Shown here piece by piece: positions 29,711-39,935 of a stretch of 64,000 bases of DNA. Position 1 is the stretch's first letter. Every line of letters begins with the position of its first letter. The notes beneath the pieces were generated by a model that was not told the origin of the DNA, did not search any database, and saw only the letters and a list, made by a program, of their open reading frames with translations. Source of the stretch: Neorhizobium sp. JUb45. Its GTDB lineage: Bacteria > Pseudomonadota > Alphaproteobacteria > Rhizobiales > Rhizobiaceae. Both the position numbers and the translations under genes were made by a program. The stretch is taken from contig NZ_SLYW01000002.1 in assembly GCF_004343585.1 (NCBI RefSeq), forward strand, positions 558,001 through 622,000, in the 5' to 3' direction.

Positions 29711-31066
29711 TTACTTCGCCGACAAAAACTCGCCGACTTCCAGCAGGCTGAATTCGTTGTTGTCTGCCTTGTCGACAGCCCGACCGGCGGAGAAGGGCAG
29801 GTTGTTGTCATTGCCGATGACGATATGGGTGGCATCGACCACGTCGACATTCTCGATCGTCACGAACGGCATGTCATAGACGCCATCCCTGGAGCCGGCC
29901 TTTTTCTTGTTGTCCGGATCCTTGATATTCATCAGGTCGATATAACCGATTTTGCGCACCGCTTTGCCGACATTGGCGTCGCTCATCTCGATCTTGTAGA
30001 CGCGCTTCAGCTCGGCCGGGGCATCGAAACAATCCGGCTTCGGCTGTTTCGGATCGGCGCAGACCTTGTCCTTGATGCCGGCGCCGTTGTCGCGCTCGAT
30101 GACGAGGGCGGTCGTGTCGTCGATCATGTTGAAATCGCCGATCGCCACGCCCTTTTCGGCCAGCGGATAAAGCCAGGAGCGGCCCGTCCAGTTTTTCGAA
30201 GCGATATCGAATTCGATGACGCGCAATGCGGTGCGGCCATCGGCCTGCTCCACCTTGCCGTCTTCGAGGAACAGCGGGCCTTCCAGCAGACCGTAAAGCT
30301 TGGCGCCATCTTTCGACATGGCCATGCCTTCATAACCGCCGGAGCGCTTCAAATTGAACACCGGCATCTTTGCAGTCGGGTTGGCCGGCATGGCGAGCGT
30401 CGGGTTGTCGGGAGACTTGACCGGCTTGCCGTCCACCATGGTCGGCACGACATCGGTCAGCTGGCCGAGCGCATCGACCTTGATCAGGTAAGGACCGAAT
30501 TCTTCGCCGAGCCAAAACCCGTCAGCCACCGGCTGTATCGATTCGATGTCGAAGTCGGCACCCGTCAGGTAACGCTTGTCGGAACCTTCCATGACGATCG
30601 GGAAGGGGGCGATGCGGTTCGGGTCGGACAGAAAGATATTCTTGACCACTTCGACCTTGTTGGTCGCCCAGTCGAATTTCACCTGATGCAGGAACAGCAT
30701 GGCGTCCGACGAATTCGCCTTGGAGCCAAAGCCGTTATCCGACAGCGTCCAGAACGTGCCGTCAGCCATCGTCTTGATGCCCGAAAAACCCTGGATCGGC
30801 TGGCCATCGAATGGCAGCTTGACGTCTGTTACGCGGGCGCCGTCCTTGCCATCAACGGTGCCGAGTTTTTCCGTACGCTTGCCCGGCGCCGTAAATTTGC
30901 CGGAGGTCTTCAGAAATTCGGGTGCATCCGAAGGAGCCGCCGTCACCGTGTTGGCGGGCAGGATGGCCTGGCCGGCGAGCTTTGCCGGAAATTCCTTGTC
31001 GTCTGCAAAAGCGGTTCCGGCAAACAGCGCTGCAAGCGCGACTGTGCTGAGAAGAAGTCGGGTCAT
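29711..31066 (-). CDS. Secreted esterase-like/phytase-like domain protein
   Basis: 451 residues from the ATG at 31066. The signal peptide is TRLLLSTVALAALFAGTAFA-DD. The mature chain contains GFSGIKTMADGTFWTLSDNGFG, TGADFDIESIQPVADGFWLGEEFGPYL, and GGYEGMAMSKDG with LYGLLEGPL. This is the pattern of the esterase-like activity of phytase beta-propeller family, which is periplasmic or secreted. An enzyme acting on phosphate esters would fit the Pho-box-like array just upstream (31121-31149), but catalytic activity is not established for the family in general. Monocistronic, with a terminator downstream. Confidence 0.88.
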   Translation of the reverse strand: MTRLLLSTVALAALFAGTAFADDKEFPAKLAGQAILPANTVTAAPSDAPEFLKTSGKFTAPGKRTEKLGTVDGKDGARVTDVKLPFDGQPIQGFSGIKTMADGTFWTLSDNGFGSKANSSDAMLFLHQVKFDWATNKVEVVKNIFLSDPNRIAPFPIVMEGSDKRYLTGADFDIESIQPVADGFWLGEEFGPYLIKVDALGQLTDVVPTMVDGKPVKSPDNPTLAMPANPTAKMPVFNLKRSGGYEGMAMSKDGAKLYGLLEGPLFLEDGKVEQADGRTALRVIEFDIASKNWTGRSWLYPLAEKGVAIGDFNMIDDTTALVIERDNGAGIKDKVCADPKQPKPDCFDAPAELKRVYKIEMSDANVGKAVRKIGYIDLMNIKDPDNKKKAGSRDGVYDMPFVTIENVDVVDATHIVIGNDNNLPFSAGRAVDKADNNEFSLLEVGEFLSAK

Positions 31067-31120: not shown

Positions 31121-31149
31121 ATGACGCGCAAGTGATCGTCATCTGACAG
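31121..31149 (-). promoter_or_regulatory. Candidate Pho box (three half-sites) upstream of the phytase-like gene
   Basis: On the minus strand three heptamers are spaced exactly 11 bp apart: CTGTCAG, CGATCAC, GCGTCAT (6/7, 4/7 and 5/7 matches to CTGTCAT). They end 55 bp upstream of the ATG at 31066. Spacing and gene function both fit PhoB, but the matches are imperfect. Confidence 0.5.
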
Positions 31150-31223
31150 TTCGATGAAGGTTTGATGGCAGGATTTTCGAAAACTTTTAAAGGGCTTGCG
31201 CAGATATTGATTGAATGCGGCCG

Positions 31224-35854: not shown

Positions 35855-37645
35855 ATGCATCGTTACCGTAGCCATACCTGCGCAGCCCTCCGCAAGTCGG
35901 ATGTCGGCTCCAATGTCCGCATTTCCGGCTGGGTTCATCGTGTCCGCGACCATGGCGGCGTGCTGTTCGTCGACCTGCGCGACCATTACGGCATGACCCA
36001 GGTCGTCTGTGACCCGGATAGCCCGGCCTTCAAGTCTGCCGAAATCGTCCGTGGCGAATGGGTCATCCGCATCGATGGCGTGGTCAAGGCGCGTTCGGAA
36101 GACACCGTCAACAAGACCATGGCGACCGGCGAAATCGAACTTTACGCCAAGGAAATCGAGGTTCTCTCGGCTGCCAAGGAACTTCCGCTGCCGGTGTTCG
36201 GCGAGCCGGAATATCCGGAAGACGTGCGCCTGAAGTACCGCTTCCTCGATCTGCGCCGCGAAACGCTGCACAAGAACATCGTCAAGCGCACCCAGATCAT
36301 CGCCGCCATGCGCCGCGAAATGACGGCCGGTGGCTTCACCGAATATTCGACGCCGATCCTGACCGCTTCCTCGCCGGAAGGCGCGCGCGACTTCCTCGTC
36401 CCGTCGCGTATTCATCCCGGCAAGTTCTTCGCGCTGCCGCAGGCGCCGCAGCAGTACAAGCAGCTGATGATGGTGGCCGGTTTCGACCGCTATTTCCAGA
36501 TCGCGCCGTGCTTCCGCGATGAAGACCCGCGCGCCGACCGCCTGCCGGGCGAATTCTACCAGCTCGACCTCGAAATGAGCTTCGTCACCCAGGAAGAAGT
36601 CTGGGAGACGATGGAACCGGTCATGCGCGGCATTTTTGAAGAGTTCGCCGACGGCAAGCCGGTCACCCAGGAATTCCCGCGCATCCCGTATGACGTCGCG
36701 ATCCGCAAATACGGTTCCGACAAGCCGGACCTGCGTAACCCGATCGAGATGGAAGCCGTTACCGAACATTTCGCCGGTTCCGGCTTCAAGGTGTTCGCCG
36801 GCATGATCGCGTCCAACCCGAAGGTCGAAATCTGGGCGATCCCGGCCAAGACCGGCGGTAGCCGCGCATTCTGCGACCGCATGAACGCCTGGGCGCAGGG
36901 CCAGGGTCAGCCGGGTCTCGGCTATATCTTCTGGAAGGAAGAGGACGGCAAGATCGCCGGTTCCGGCCCGCTCGCCAAGAACATCGGCGAAGAGCGTACC
37001 GAAGCCGTCCGCACCCAGCTTGGCCTCGAAGCGGGCGATGCCTGCTTCTTTGTCGCCGGCGAACCGGAAAAATTCTACAAGTTCGCAGGCGAAGCCCGTA
37101 ACCGCGCTGCCGACGAACTGGGTCTGTCCAACAAGGACCAGTTCGCGCTGTGCTGGATCGTCGACTTCCCGTTCTTCGAATACAACGAGGAAGACAAGAA
37201 GATCGACTTCGCCCACAACCCGTTCTCGATGCCGCAGGGCGGTCTCGACGCACTGGAAAACCAGGATCCGTTGACGATCAAGGCCTACCAGTACGACATG
37301 GTCTGCAACGGTTTCGAAATCGCCTCGGGCTCGATCCGTAACCAGCTGCCGGAAGTCATGGTCAAGGCTTTTGAAATGGTCGGCTTGTCTCAGCAGGACG
37401 TGGAAGACCGCTTCGGCGGCCTCTACCGCGCCTTCCAGTACGGCGCACCTCCGCACGGCGGCATGGCAGCCGGCGTCGACCGCGTCGTCATGCTTCTGAC
37501 CGGTGCCAAGAACCTGCGCGAAATCACGCTGTTCCCGATGAACCAGCAGGCGCAGGATCTGCTCATGGGTGCTCCTTCGGAAGCCCAGCCAGCCCAGCTG
37601 CGCGAACTGGCGATCCGTCCGATCCCGCCGGTCAAGAAAGACTGA
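35855..37645 (+). CDS. aspS: Aspartyl-tRNA synthetase
   Basis: 596 residues, the full length of the bacterial type with an insertion domain. The N-terminal OB-fold anticodon-binding domain starts [15 protein letters not shown] and [22 protein letters not shown]. Class II motifs follow: motif 2 around [20 protein letters not shown] and motif 3 near the C-terminus (GVDRVVMLL). The GAD insert lies between about 300 and 420. Strong codon bias fits a highly expressed housekeeping gene. It is followed by its own hairpin terminator. Confidence 0.98.
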
Positions 37646-37683
37646 CATTCGTCAGTAAATCCGACGGAATATCAAGTATTGCG

Positions 37684-37708
37684 ACGGCGGCCTTCGGGTC
37701 GCCGTTTG
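37684..37708 (+). terminator. Probable terminator of aspS
   Basis: Stem ACGGCGGCC / GGTCGCCGT (one G-T pair) with a TTCG tetraloop, followed by TTTGTG. It separates aspS from the Pho boxes and the chemoreceptor gene. Confidence 0.75.
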
Positions 37709-37732
37709 TGTATCGACAATCCCCGTTATCCA

Positions 37733-37750
37733 CTGTCATAAAACTGTCAT
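37733..37750 (+). promoter_or_regulatory. Pho box (perfect) upstream of the chemoreceptor gene
   Basis: CTGTCATAAAACTGTCAT: two perfect CTGTCAT half-sites, 11 bp from start to start, separated by AAAA. This matches the PhoB box consensus in full. A third, weaker half-site ATTTCAC follows at 37755-37761 with the same period. It lies downstream of the aspS terminator and 83 bp before the chemoreceptor start. Confidence 0.85.
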
Positions 37751-37790
37751 TGTAATTTCACCTCGGTTTTGAAGCTTCATTAAAACCTGA

Positions 37791-37808
37791 CTGTCACTAC
37801 ACTGGCAC
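37791..37808 (+). promoter_or_regulatory. Second Pho box upstream of the chemoreceptor gene
   Basis: CTGTCAC-TACA-CTGGCAC, half-sites again 11 bp apart (6/7 and 5/7). It lies 58 bp after the first box and 25 bp before the proposed TTG start at 37833, so it may be a second activator site, or it may repress by position. Confidence 0.6.
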
Positions 37809-37832
37809 ATTCAATTGCACGGGGTGTCAGCT

Positions 37833-39935
37833 TTGGCCTTTTTCTCCAATCTCCGGATTTCCCATCGTGTGATGCTTCTGGCCGTTCTGGCCCTTGCCGG
37901 CATCACCGCCATTGCCGCGATCTTTCTCGGCCAGCGCCAGATCGAAGCCGGTTACCGGTCCGCTGCCGAGGCGCTTTCGCAGCGTCAGGCCGAGGTGGCA
38001 AAAATGTCGGACAGCGTGCGCGACAGTTTGCTGTGGGAGCAATATTTCCTGCTGCACAAGGATATGGCCGCAGCCGACAAGTTTACAGCCGCCACGGTTG
38101 ATGTTCGCGGCTTTCTCGGAGGCCTGCGTTCGGCGGCAAGTCGGGAGCTTGCCGGACAGCTCGACCAACTGGACACCGGCCTGACCGCCTATGAGGCGAC
38201 TTTTGCAACGCTGGTGAAGGACAATCAAGAACTCGGCCTCGACCAGAATAGCGGCCTTGAAGGCGCCATGCGCTCCGCCGTTCATTCCATCGAGCAGCGT
38301 CTGGAAACCGTCGAGGATGCTCGCATCCGTGCCAGCATGCTGATGCTGCGTCGTCATGAGAAGGATTTCATCCTGCGCGGCACGCCATCCTATCTGGAAA
38401 AACATGCGGCGGAGGCCGAAACGTTTACGGCGCTGATCAAGGAAGCCTTTCGCCCCGGCGCGCAGCGCAGTCGCGTCATGGATGCTTTGGAAGTCTACCG
38501 CTCGGCCTTCCGGTTCTATGCCGAGGCCAGCCTGAAGGAAGCGCAGAGCCAGAAGAGTGTATCGGCTGCCTATCAGGCGCTGGAACCGCAGGTTCAGGCT
38601 GTCAGCTCTGCTTATGAAGCCAAGCGGGATGCGACACTTGCCGAAAATGCCCGTGTTGCCGCGCGCAATCTGATGATCGCCGCCGGCCTCATCGGTGCTG
38701 CCGTTATCCTTCTCGGCCTCGGTGTCTGGCTGATCGGCCGTTCGATCACCCGACCGGTCGTTGCCATGACGGCCGCCATGCGCAGGCTTGCCGGCGGCGA
38801 AACCGCGCTGGTGATCCCCTCGCTCAACTGTCGCAACGAGTTTGGCGCCATGGCCGGCGCACTCGACACCTTTCGCGAAGCCGCGATCGCCAACCGGCGT
38901 CTGGAAGAAGAAGCGGCCGACGCCCGCGCCAATGCCGAGGGCGAGCGTCTTCGCCTGCAACAACAGGCCGAGGCCGAAGCGCGTGCACGCCTGATGCAGG
39001 CCACCGAAGGTCTGGCAGAAGGCCTGCGCCGCCTCGCCGCCGGTGATCTCGCCTTCGAACTGACCGAACCTTTTGCGCCGGATTTCGAAAACCTGCGTCG
39101 TGATCTCAACCAGACCGTCGCCCGTCTCGGCGAAGTCATGGCGTCTATCGCCCATGCTGCCCATGCGATCGACGGCGGCAGCCGCGAAATCGCCGGCAGC
39201 GCCAACGATCTCTCCAGCCGTACCGAACAGCAGGCCGCCTCGCTGGAAGAAACAGCGTCGGCGCTGGAACAGATCACCGCAAATGTCCGAAATTCGTCAA
39301 AGCGCTCGCAAGATGCCAATCGCATTGCCGGTGAAGCCAACGTCTCGGCCGGCAAGACACGGGTTCTCGTCACCGAAGCGCTGGAAGCCATGGGCCGCAT
39401 CGAGGCGTCGTCCTCACGCATTGCCGGCATTATCGGCGTCATCGACGAGATCGCGTTCCAGACCAACCTTCTGGCACTCAATGCCGGCGTCGAGGCCGCA
39501 CGGGCAGGCGAGGCCGGTCGTGGTTTCGCCGTCGTCGCGCAGGAAGTACGGGCACTCGCCGGTCGTTCTGCCGATGCGGCGCGCGAGATCAAGGAACTGA
39601 TCCGCGTGTCGGGCGTCGAAGTGAAGGACGGCGTAAGTTCGGTTCGCGAGACCGGCGAGGCCCTGACCGGCATCGGCAGTCGTGTCGAGGCCATCAATAT
39701 CGAAGTGGAAGCGATCGCGCTGTCCGCCCGCGAACAGTCGGTCGGTCTTGGCGAGATCAATACCGCCGTCAATCTTCTCGACCAGAATACCCAGCACAAC
39801 GCCGCGATGGTGGAAGAAAACAATGCGGCCAGCGCACTGCTGATGAACGAGGCCCAGCGCCTGCGCGATCTGGTCGGCATGTTCAAGCTGACGGAAGTCG
39901 AGGCCCGAGAGTTTCGCGGCAGCCGCGCGGCATAA
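37833..39935 (+). CDS. Methyl-accepting chemotaxis protein with HBM-like sensor domain
   Basis: About 700 residues. I choose the TTG at 37833 (AFFSNLRI follows) because GGGGTG lies upstream. A TTG at 37815 is also in frame. Order: TM1 (about 13-31); a helical periplasmic sensor (about 40-270) whose LRRHEKDFILRG motif is typical of helical-bimodular (HBM) domains; TM2 (about 279-302); a HAMP domain ending near 355; a second HAMP-like helix; and the signalling domain with the conserved tip IDEIAFQTNLLALNAGVEAA. No CheR-binding pentapeptide is seen at the C-terminus. Ligand unknown; HBM sensors can bind organic acids. Two Pho boxes upstream point to induction under phosphate limitation. Confidence 0.93.
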   Translation: MAFFSNLRISHRVMLLAVLALAGITAIAAIFLGQRQIEAGYRSAAEALSQRQAEVAKMSDSVRDSLLWEQYFLLHKDMAAADKFTAATVDVRGFLGGLRSAASRELAGQLDQLDTGLTAYEATFATLVKDNQELGLDQNSGLEGAMRSAVHSIEQRLETVEDARIRASMLMLRRHEKDFILRGTPSYLEKHAAEAETFTALIKEAFRPGAQRSRVMDALEVYRSAFRFYAEASLKEAQSQKSVSAAYQALEPQVQAVSSAYEAKRDATLAENARVAARNLMIAAGLIGAAVILLGLGVWLIGRSITRPVVAMTAAMRRLAGGETALVIPSLNCRNEFGAMAGALDTFREAAIANRRLEEEAADARANAEGERLRLQQQAEAEARARLMQATEGLAEGLRRLAAGDLAFELTEPFAPDFENLRRDLNQTVARLGEVMASIAHAAHAIDGGSREIAGSANDLSSRTEQQAASLEETASALEQITANVRNSSKRSQDANRIAGEANVSAGKTRVLVTEALEAMGRIEASSSRIAGIIGVIDEIAFQTNLLALNAGVEAARAGEAGRGFAVVAQEVRALAGRSADAAREIKELIRVSGVEVKDGVSSVRETGEALTGIGSRVEAINIEVEAIALSAREQSVGLGEINTAVNLLDQNTQHNAAMVEENNAASALLMNEAQRLRDLVGMFKLTEVEAREFRGSRAA

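Follow-up and report, generated by a model that had tools for sequence, protein, structure and literature searches.

Does the phosphate regulator PhoB control a chemoreceptor gene in Neorhizobium sp. JUb45? The question is raised by the gap between aspS and a chemoreceptor (MCP) gene in the stretch of DNA analysed here (the window; 64,000 nucleotides of contig NZ_SLYW01000002.1). An initial annotation of this gap proposed chemotaxis induced by phosphate starvation. Judged from the DNA, a conserved PhoB-type site before this HBM-fold chemoreceptor gene is real, and control by PhoB itself is likely. The genome encodes one PhoB that scores above the model cut-off, at 343.5 bits (1 of 76 matches), and its gene lies about 5.7 kb after the start of a PstS-family gene. 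The name pstS for the latter rests on its position 5.7 kb ahead of phoB and on its top-scoring family, whose model cut-off it does not reach (154.7 vs 206.6 bits).

Table 1. Features of the aspS-chemoreceptor locus, in window coordinates
Feature	Coordinates	Strand	Evidence
aspS (aspartate--tRNA ligase), upstream neighbour	35855..37645	+	ORF; NCBIfam 827 bits, cut-off 443
Hairpin after aspS, possible terminator	37684..37705	+	ACGGCG/CGCCGT by eye; similar sequence in L032-L042
Putative Pho box, half-sites 1+2, CTGTCAT-AAAA-CTGTCAT	37733..37750	+	Unique perfect genome match; matrix 20.1
Overlapping putative Pho box, half-sites 2+3, CTGTCAT-TGTA-ATTTCAC	37744..37761	+	Matrix 18.6; alignable in orthologues
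Conserved element TTGAAGCTTCATTAA, putative core promoter	37769..37783	+	TTAA at fixed distance from site
Claimed second box CTGTCAC-TACA-CTGGCAC, probably chance	37791..37808	+	Matrix 11.3; without conservation
Chemoreceptor (MCP), 700 aa, likely TTG start	37833..39935	+	HBM-fold sensor, HAMP, MCP signalling domain

A perfect Pho box and an independent PhoB matrix

The perfect Pho box CTGTCATAAAACTGTCAT lies exactly where it had been placed, as borne out by the letters and by a consensus scan, and it is the sole match without mismatches in the 6.2-Mb genome. With up to two mismatches, the genome contains 46 sites, compared to 4 for a reversed control pattern that preserves base content and not word bias. 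One such 2-mismatch site serves as a positive control, preceding phnG (L024), a classic PhoB target. The 46 sites were rejected as a regulon; among the 30 with loci, several are inside ORFs or near unrelated genes, eno, greA and xseA being examples. With up to three mismatches, the window has 8 matches where 4.1 are expected, and 6 of 100 shuffles have at least as many; imperfect boxes by themselves are therefore weak evidence. The third half-site of the initial annotation, ATTTCAC at 37755-37761, is present in 11-bp phase and scores 8.6 bits, where a perfect half-site scores 10.1.

A half-site matrix was built from the boxes found across 30 pstS and 30 phnG loci in the genus, 32 distinct 18-mers in all and no chemoreceptor sequence among them; search expressions modelled on the known consensus had picked out these training boxes, a mild circularity. 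The motif TGTCAY-N4-GTTTCAY-N4-NTGACAT is found upstream of pstS in all 30 genus loci, and 28 of the 30 phnG loci yielded a box. The second half-site of this pstS box, GTTTCAY, present in 30/30 pstS loci, is the one that ATTTCAC resembles. When both strands of the window were scanned with the PhoB matrix, the sites at 37733 and 37744 came first and second. The score of the first falls inside the range of the training boxes (14.7-22.0), and the best unrelated site in the window, at 12.9, lies where a different gene probably has its start codon. Upstream of the chemoreceptor genes of the genome (29 tested of 31 PF00015 matches), the receptor's own site is again first, followed by scores of 9.3 and 8.7. 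With the threshold set at 8.5 (99th percentile in the window), the upstreams of 2 among the 28 other MCP genes pass as well. A single score of 8-10 is therefore of little weight, and AT-rich upstreams raise the background. The arrangement of the site, tandem 7-bp half-sites with an 11-bp period, is that of the genus motif, as expected of a direct PhoB target.

The second box that had been proposed nearer the start codon did not hold up. Its letters are present, and its function as a box is unsupported: the second half scores 2.1 bits, and the total is level with other window peaks (12.9, 11.4 and 11.1). Between core and start, none of the 15 further orthologues tested in the genus scores more than 2.3. 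With a chance-level score and absence from 15 of 15 orthologues, this box was rejected.

Conservation of the site and promoter geometry

Homologues of the receptor are found in 20 of 57 genus genomes and in 30 of 297 genomes of a family sample, with the own genome counted in both. Among 48 homologous loci, 20 reach 8.5. Twelve of these are same-genus loci (of 19, counting the own one) and eight are family loci (of 29), one of which (L145) has its match at a different position and may be a chance hit; the other 28 score below 8.5. The 99th percentile of letter-shuffled orthologue upstreams, 12.9, is exceeded by 13 of the 48. Phase was assessed in a subset of 25 loci (16 genus, 9 family) that was partly chosen after viewing, with a separate 99th percentile for each spacing. 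At 11 bp, 19 of the 25 reach that level, compared to 2, 3, 0 and 3 at 9, 10, 12 and 13 bp. A spacing of 22 bp passes in 9 of 25 loci, as expected from a triple site. The pair of half-sites 2+3 is conserved more widely than pair 1+2, and in another genus (g54) the site is present in 6 of 7 species.

The initial annotation would have been refuted by boxes that are not kept in orthologous loci. The first box is kept, except in one four-species clade and in most of the diverged homologues, where the site is absent from the majority under about 40% identity. The clade (L037 and L040-L042; sensor-tree support 100/98) lacks the site and retains its pstS boxes (L158, L159, L164 and L177). A single loss in this clade is the simplest reading, and box loss with the pstS boxes intact offers a natural comparison. 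L047, L133 and L218 are also without the site, and the deep forks of the sensor tree are weak. Of 22 same-genus loci, counting the own one, 14 show aspS homology no more than 1.5 kb from the receptor (about 1.1 kb in L044); of 29 family loci, 6 do, with a distance of 0.5-0.7 kb in three. Some site carriers, such as L043 and L045, have no aspS inside 1.5 kb, so the site travels with the receptor gene and not with the neighbourhood. The aspS terminator of the initial annotation can be seen by eye as a hairpin and is missing from a simple terminator scan.

Downstream of the site, a TTAA follows the best pair of half-sites by 17-18 or 28-29 bp in all 19 site-bearing loci of the 25-locus subset; the longer distance applies where the best pair is one 11-bp turn upstream. 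Of the other 28 chemoreceptor genes tested, one (L116) also has the TTGAAGCTTCATTAA-type motif in front, and the core motif TTGA[AT]G.TT..TTAA occurs in 2 of 29 chemoreceptor upstreams, own included. Plain TTAA is found in 17 of 29 chemoreceptor upstreams, compared to a fraction of 0.19 of GC-matched window stretches, a weak comparison with coding DNA among those stretches. A search of 37600-37900 gave no sigma-70 promoter match. At the genome's own phnG, the box ends 10 bp before CTATAA, whereas 17-18 bp separate box and TTAA at the receptor gene. Either this TTAA is not a -10 element, or the geometry differs from the standard one; because of the difference in distance from phnG, it would be non-standard if TTAA were the -10.

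Other elements were considered in the same gap. A sigma-54-like TGGCAC...TTGCA at 37803-37819 was set aside, its spacing being off by one base by eye. A leader hairpin ahead of the start codon was looked for in 4 sequences, whose folding is not significant (z between -1.35 and 0.15). The letters GGGG at 37821-37824, also noted by eye, are a possible ribosome site. The orthologues align from the TTG codon at 37833, with the N-terminus MAFFSNLR, and the TTG start is seemingly retained in many of them (L031-L042). By eye, two of the chemoreceptor upstreams of the genome (L102 and L118) contain GATTAAA-N6-TTTAATC inverted repeats, perhaps a shared motility promoter element.

The receptor and its known counterparts

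The receptor matches HAMP (4.1e-8) and MCPsignal (8.8e-47) in Pfam and no sensor family. Its closest named relatives are Endobacterium cereale (84%) and Neorhizobium huautlense (82%), compared over the sensor part; one homologue, L141 (G130:C22), has an in-frame stop, from decay or assembly error. The HBM-like sensor of the initial annotation stands as a predicted fold closest to McpS, the HBM prototype, and does not stand as a Pfam HBM match. A structure model of the first 306 residues (pLDDT 89.4) has two stacked helical modules like those of McpS. McpS (2yfa/2yfb) is the top Foldseek match, with an E-value of 1.2e-5, a TM score of 0.69-0.70 by target, and 13% identity. In VIA-align, where helical bundles generally score high, McpS reaches Z 16.1 over 213 residues; two matches of 121-122 residues score higher (17.7 and 17.6), and TorS, McpZ and PilJ, at 13.4-14.0, score below it. 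By sequence, the receptor itself has no match to Pfam HBM (PF16591) at E up to 1. In two overlapping sets of homologues, weak HBM matches were found in 2 of 18 (best 0.013) and 7 of 21 (best 0.0012), and matches to CHASE3, another helical sensor family, in 3 of 18 (best 0.028) and 3 of 21 (best 2.3e-7). Sequence searches of the PDB with sensor alignments did not find McpS; the matches were coiled coils and other helical chains, including sensors of sensor kinases and HAMP proteins at E 0.004-0.006. The predicted model thus supports a receptor that is HBM-like by fold and not by sequence.

The nearest functional precedent is CtpL of Pseudomonas aeruginosa, whose gene is controlled by PhoB itself. 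CtpL is described as having an HBM sensor (PMC5126104), as raised in low phosphate (PMC9864684), and as sensing phosphate through PstS (PMC4926252, PMC9864684, PMC5126104). The receptor of the window has the same predicted type of fold, and its gene is likewise preceded by a PhoB-type site. Unlike CtpL, it is alphaproteobacterial and lacks a Pfam HBM match; the likeness is one of predicted fold type. The analogy drawn by the initial annotation is reasonable because the predicted sensor fold is HBM-type. McpS, also of Pseudomonas, belongs with McpQ and McpK to a group of organic-acid HBM receptors, for which we know of no phosphate control. The likeness of the window sensor to McpS concerns the overall predicted fold. 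Several characterised HBM receptors bind organic acids (PMC5126104), and the ligand may therefore be phosphate or an organic acid; phosphate bound through loaded PstS, as in CtpL, and an organic acid are about equally likely guesses.

In rhizobia, the PhoB regulon of Sinorhizobium meliloti is reported to include pst, phn, phoX, btaA, wgeA and SMc04317 (PMC8829014), and the site at the window receptor would follow the same target logic. The phosphate-stress genes of S. meliloti listed there and in a further source concern phosphate transport, phosphonates, iron transport, lipids and polysaccharide (PMC8829014, PMC5127829). The regulon paper also describes a co-expressed network of chemotaxis and motility under nutrient stress and chemotaxis genes in the E. 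coli PhoB regulon, and its accessible sections name no chemoreceptor as a direct PhoB target in rhizobia (PMC8829014). Phosphate control was likewise not found in the accessible sections of a review of rhizobial chemotaxis (PMC8429497). A relative, Agrobacterium GW4, does have a chemoreceptor gene, Mcp, under a response regulator, AioR (PMC7533571). Unlike the case proposed here, GW4 Mcp responds to arsenite, and its sensor is described in that text as binding As(III) and not As(V) or phosphate (PMC7533571). In the literature searched, mostly without subscription papers, no rhizobial chemoreceptor controlled by PhoB is described, and a 2006 prediction may list one. That prediction, by Yuan, was reportedly a genome-wide one for PhoB.

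Probable PhoB control, its alternatives and other candidate targets

Control of the receptor by PhoB is well supported at the sequence level by the pstS/phnG matrix, the 11-bp phase, the fixed placement of the core and the presence of the site across genera. A chance match without function is highly improbable. The excess of imperfect matches in the window, small enough for some shuffles to equal it, would fit chance, but a perfect match unique in the genome, the top matrix score, and cross-genus conservation specific to one phase do not. Less improbable, though still unlikely, is an incidental likeness to a Pho box, with the repeats bound by a motility regulator or by a response regulator of the OmpR/PhoB family other than PhoB. 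Within this family, PhoB is not alone in using direct repeats of about 10-11 bp, some relatives have less PhoB-typical half-sites (CCTTCAT, ATTTCGC) together with a CGAAATTTCG palindrome, and the repeats sit near a core that one other MCP gene has too. Against such a regulator, a matrix trained on pstS and phnG only places the box within the range of its training boxes, the genus pstS box itself contains GTTTCAY and a CGAA linker, and 9.3 is the highest score at the other 28 MCP upstreams tested.

The direction of control is a separate matter. PhoB could bind and repress, turning the receptor off under starvation, possibly via the downstream box. The closeness of the box to the core and the non-standard geometry would suit repression; the conserved site, however, lies upstream of the core, as at activated promoters, and the downstream box is without conservation. 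In P. aeruginosa, ctpH and ctpL are lowered by phosphate and raised by starvation (PMC9864684; PMC4926252). Repression is thus rather unlikely, and the PhoB-type site probably activates the HBM-fold receptor gene under phosphate shortage in a CtpL-like manner.

For activation by PhoB, we propose the following course. The three half-sites in 11-bp phase (37733, 37744 and 37755) would form a PhoB-binding site in the aspS-MCP gap. When phosphate is short, phosphorylated PhoB would bind there as one or two overlapping tandem dimers and activate the promoter, whose conserved core would start 7 bp downstream of the site. The outcome would be a higher level of one receptor among about 30 chemoreceptors. 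This receptor, presumably membrane-anchored, with a periplasmic HBM-fold sensor followed by HAMP and the signalling domain, would join the chemotaxis array, and the cells would seek phosphate or compounds that mark its scarcity. If this is true, the phosphate-starvation response is linked to steering in rhizobia. Phosphate-starved roots release organic acids, and a single gene would provide a handle on root-associated bacteria swimming to phosphate or organic acids. It is possible, if doubtful, that several Rhizobiaceae genera have kept by vertical descent an HBM receptor switched by PhoB and dedicated to reading phosphate-loaded PstS, a phosphate-seeking system on the CtpL plan in soil and root bacteria, with this receptor the sole phosphate-switched one among about 30 and one lineage secondarily uncoupled.

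By its sequence, a phytase-like esterase gene (PF13449) at 29711-31066 on the minus strand is another candidate for PhoB control in the window. Upstream of it, at 31143-31171 on the same strand, lie three half-sites in phase, CTGCCAT-CAAA-CCTTCAT-CGAA-CTGTCAG. The gene's own site scores only 8.2, and relatives in the genus have longer arrays (CCGTCAT-CAAA-GCTTCAT-CGAA-...). Scores of at least 8.5 are found at 16 of 30 loci of this gene, two of them (L230 and L231) at other sequences, and one copy (G039:C1:3025155-3026494) is split in two pieces, by decay or assembly error. Elsewhere in the own genome, ABC transporter ORFs have a box upstream, with 1 mismatch at a distance of 67 bp in L003 (C3:253917) and with 2 mismatches at 48 bp in L008 (C1:955297). 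The best NCBIfam matches of these ORFs, below cut-off, are 2-aminoethylphosphonate-type subunits, and they are candidate PhoB targets as well.
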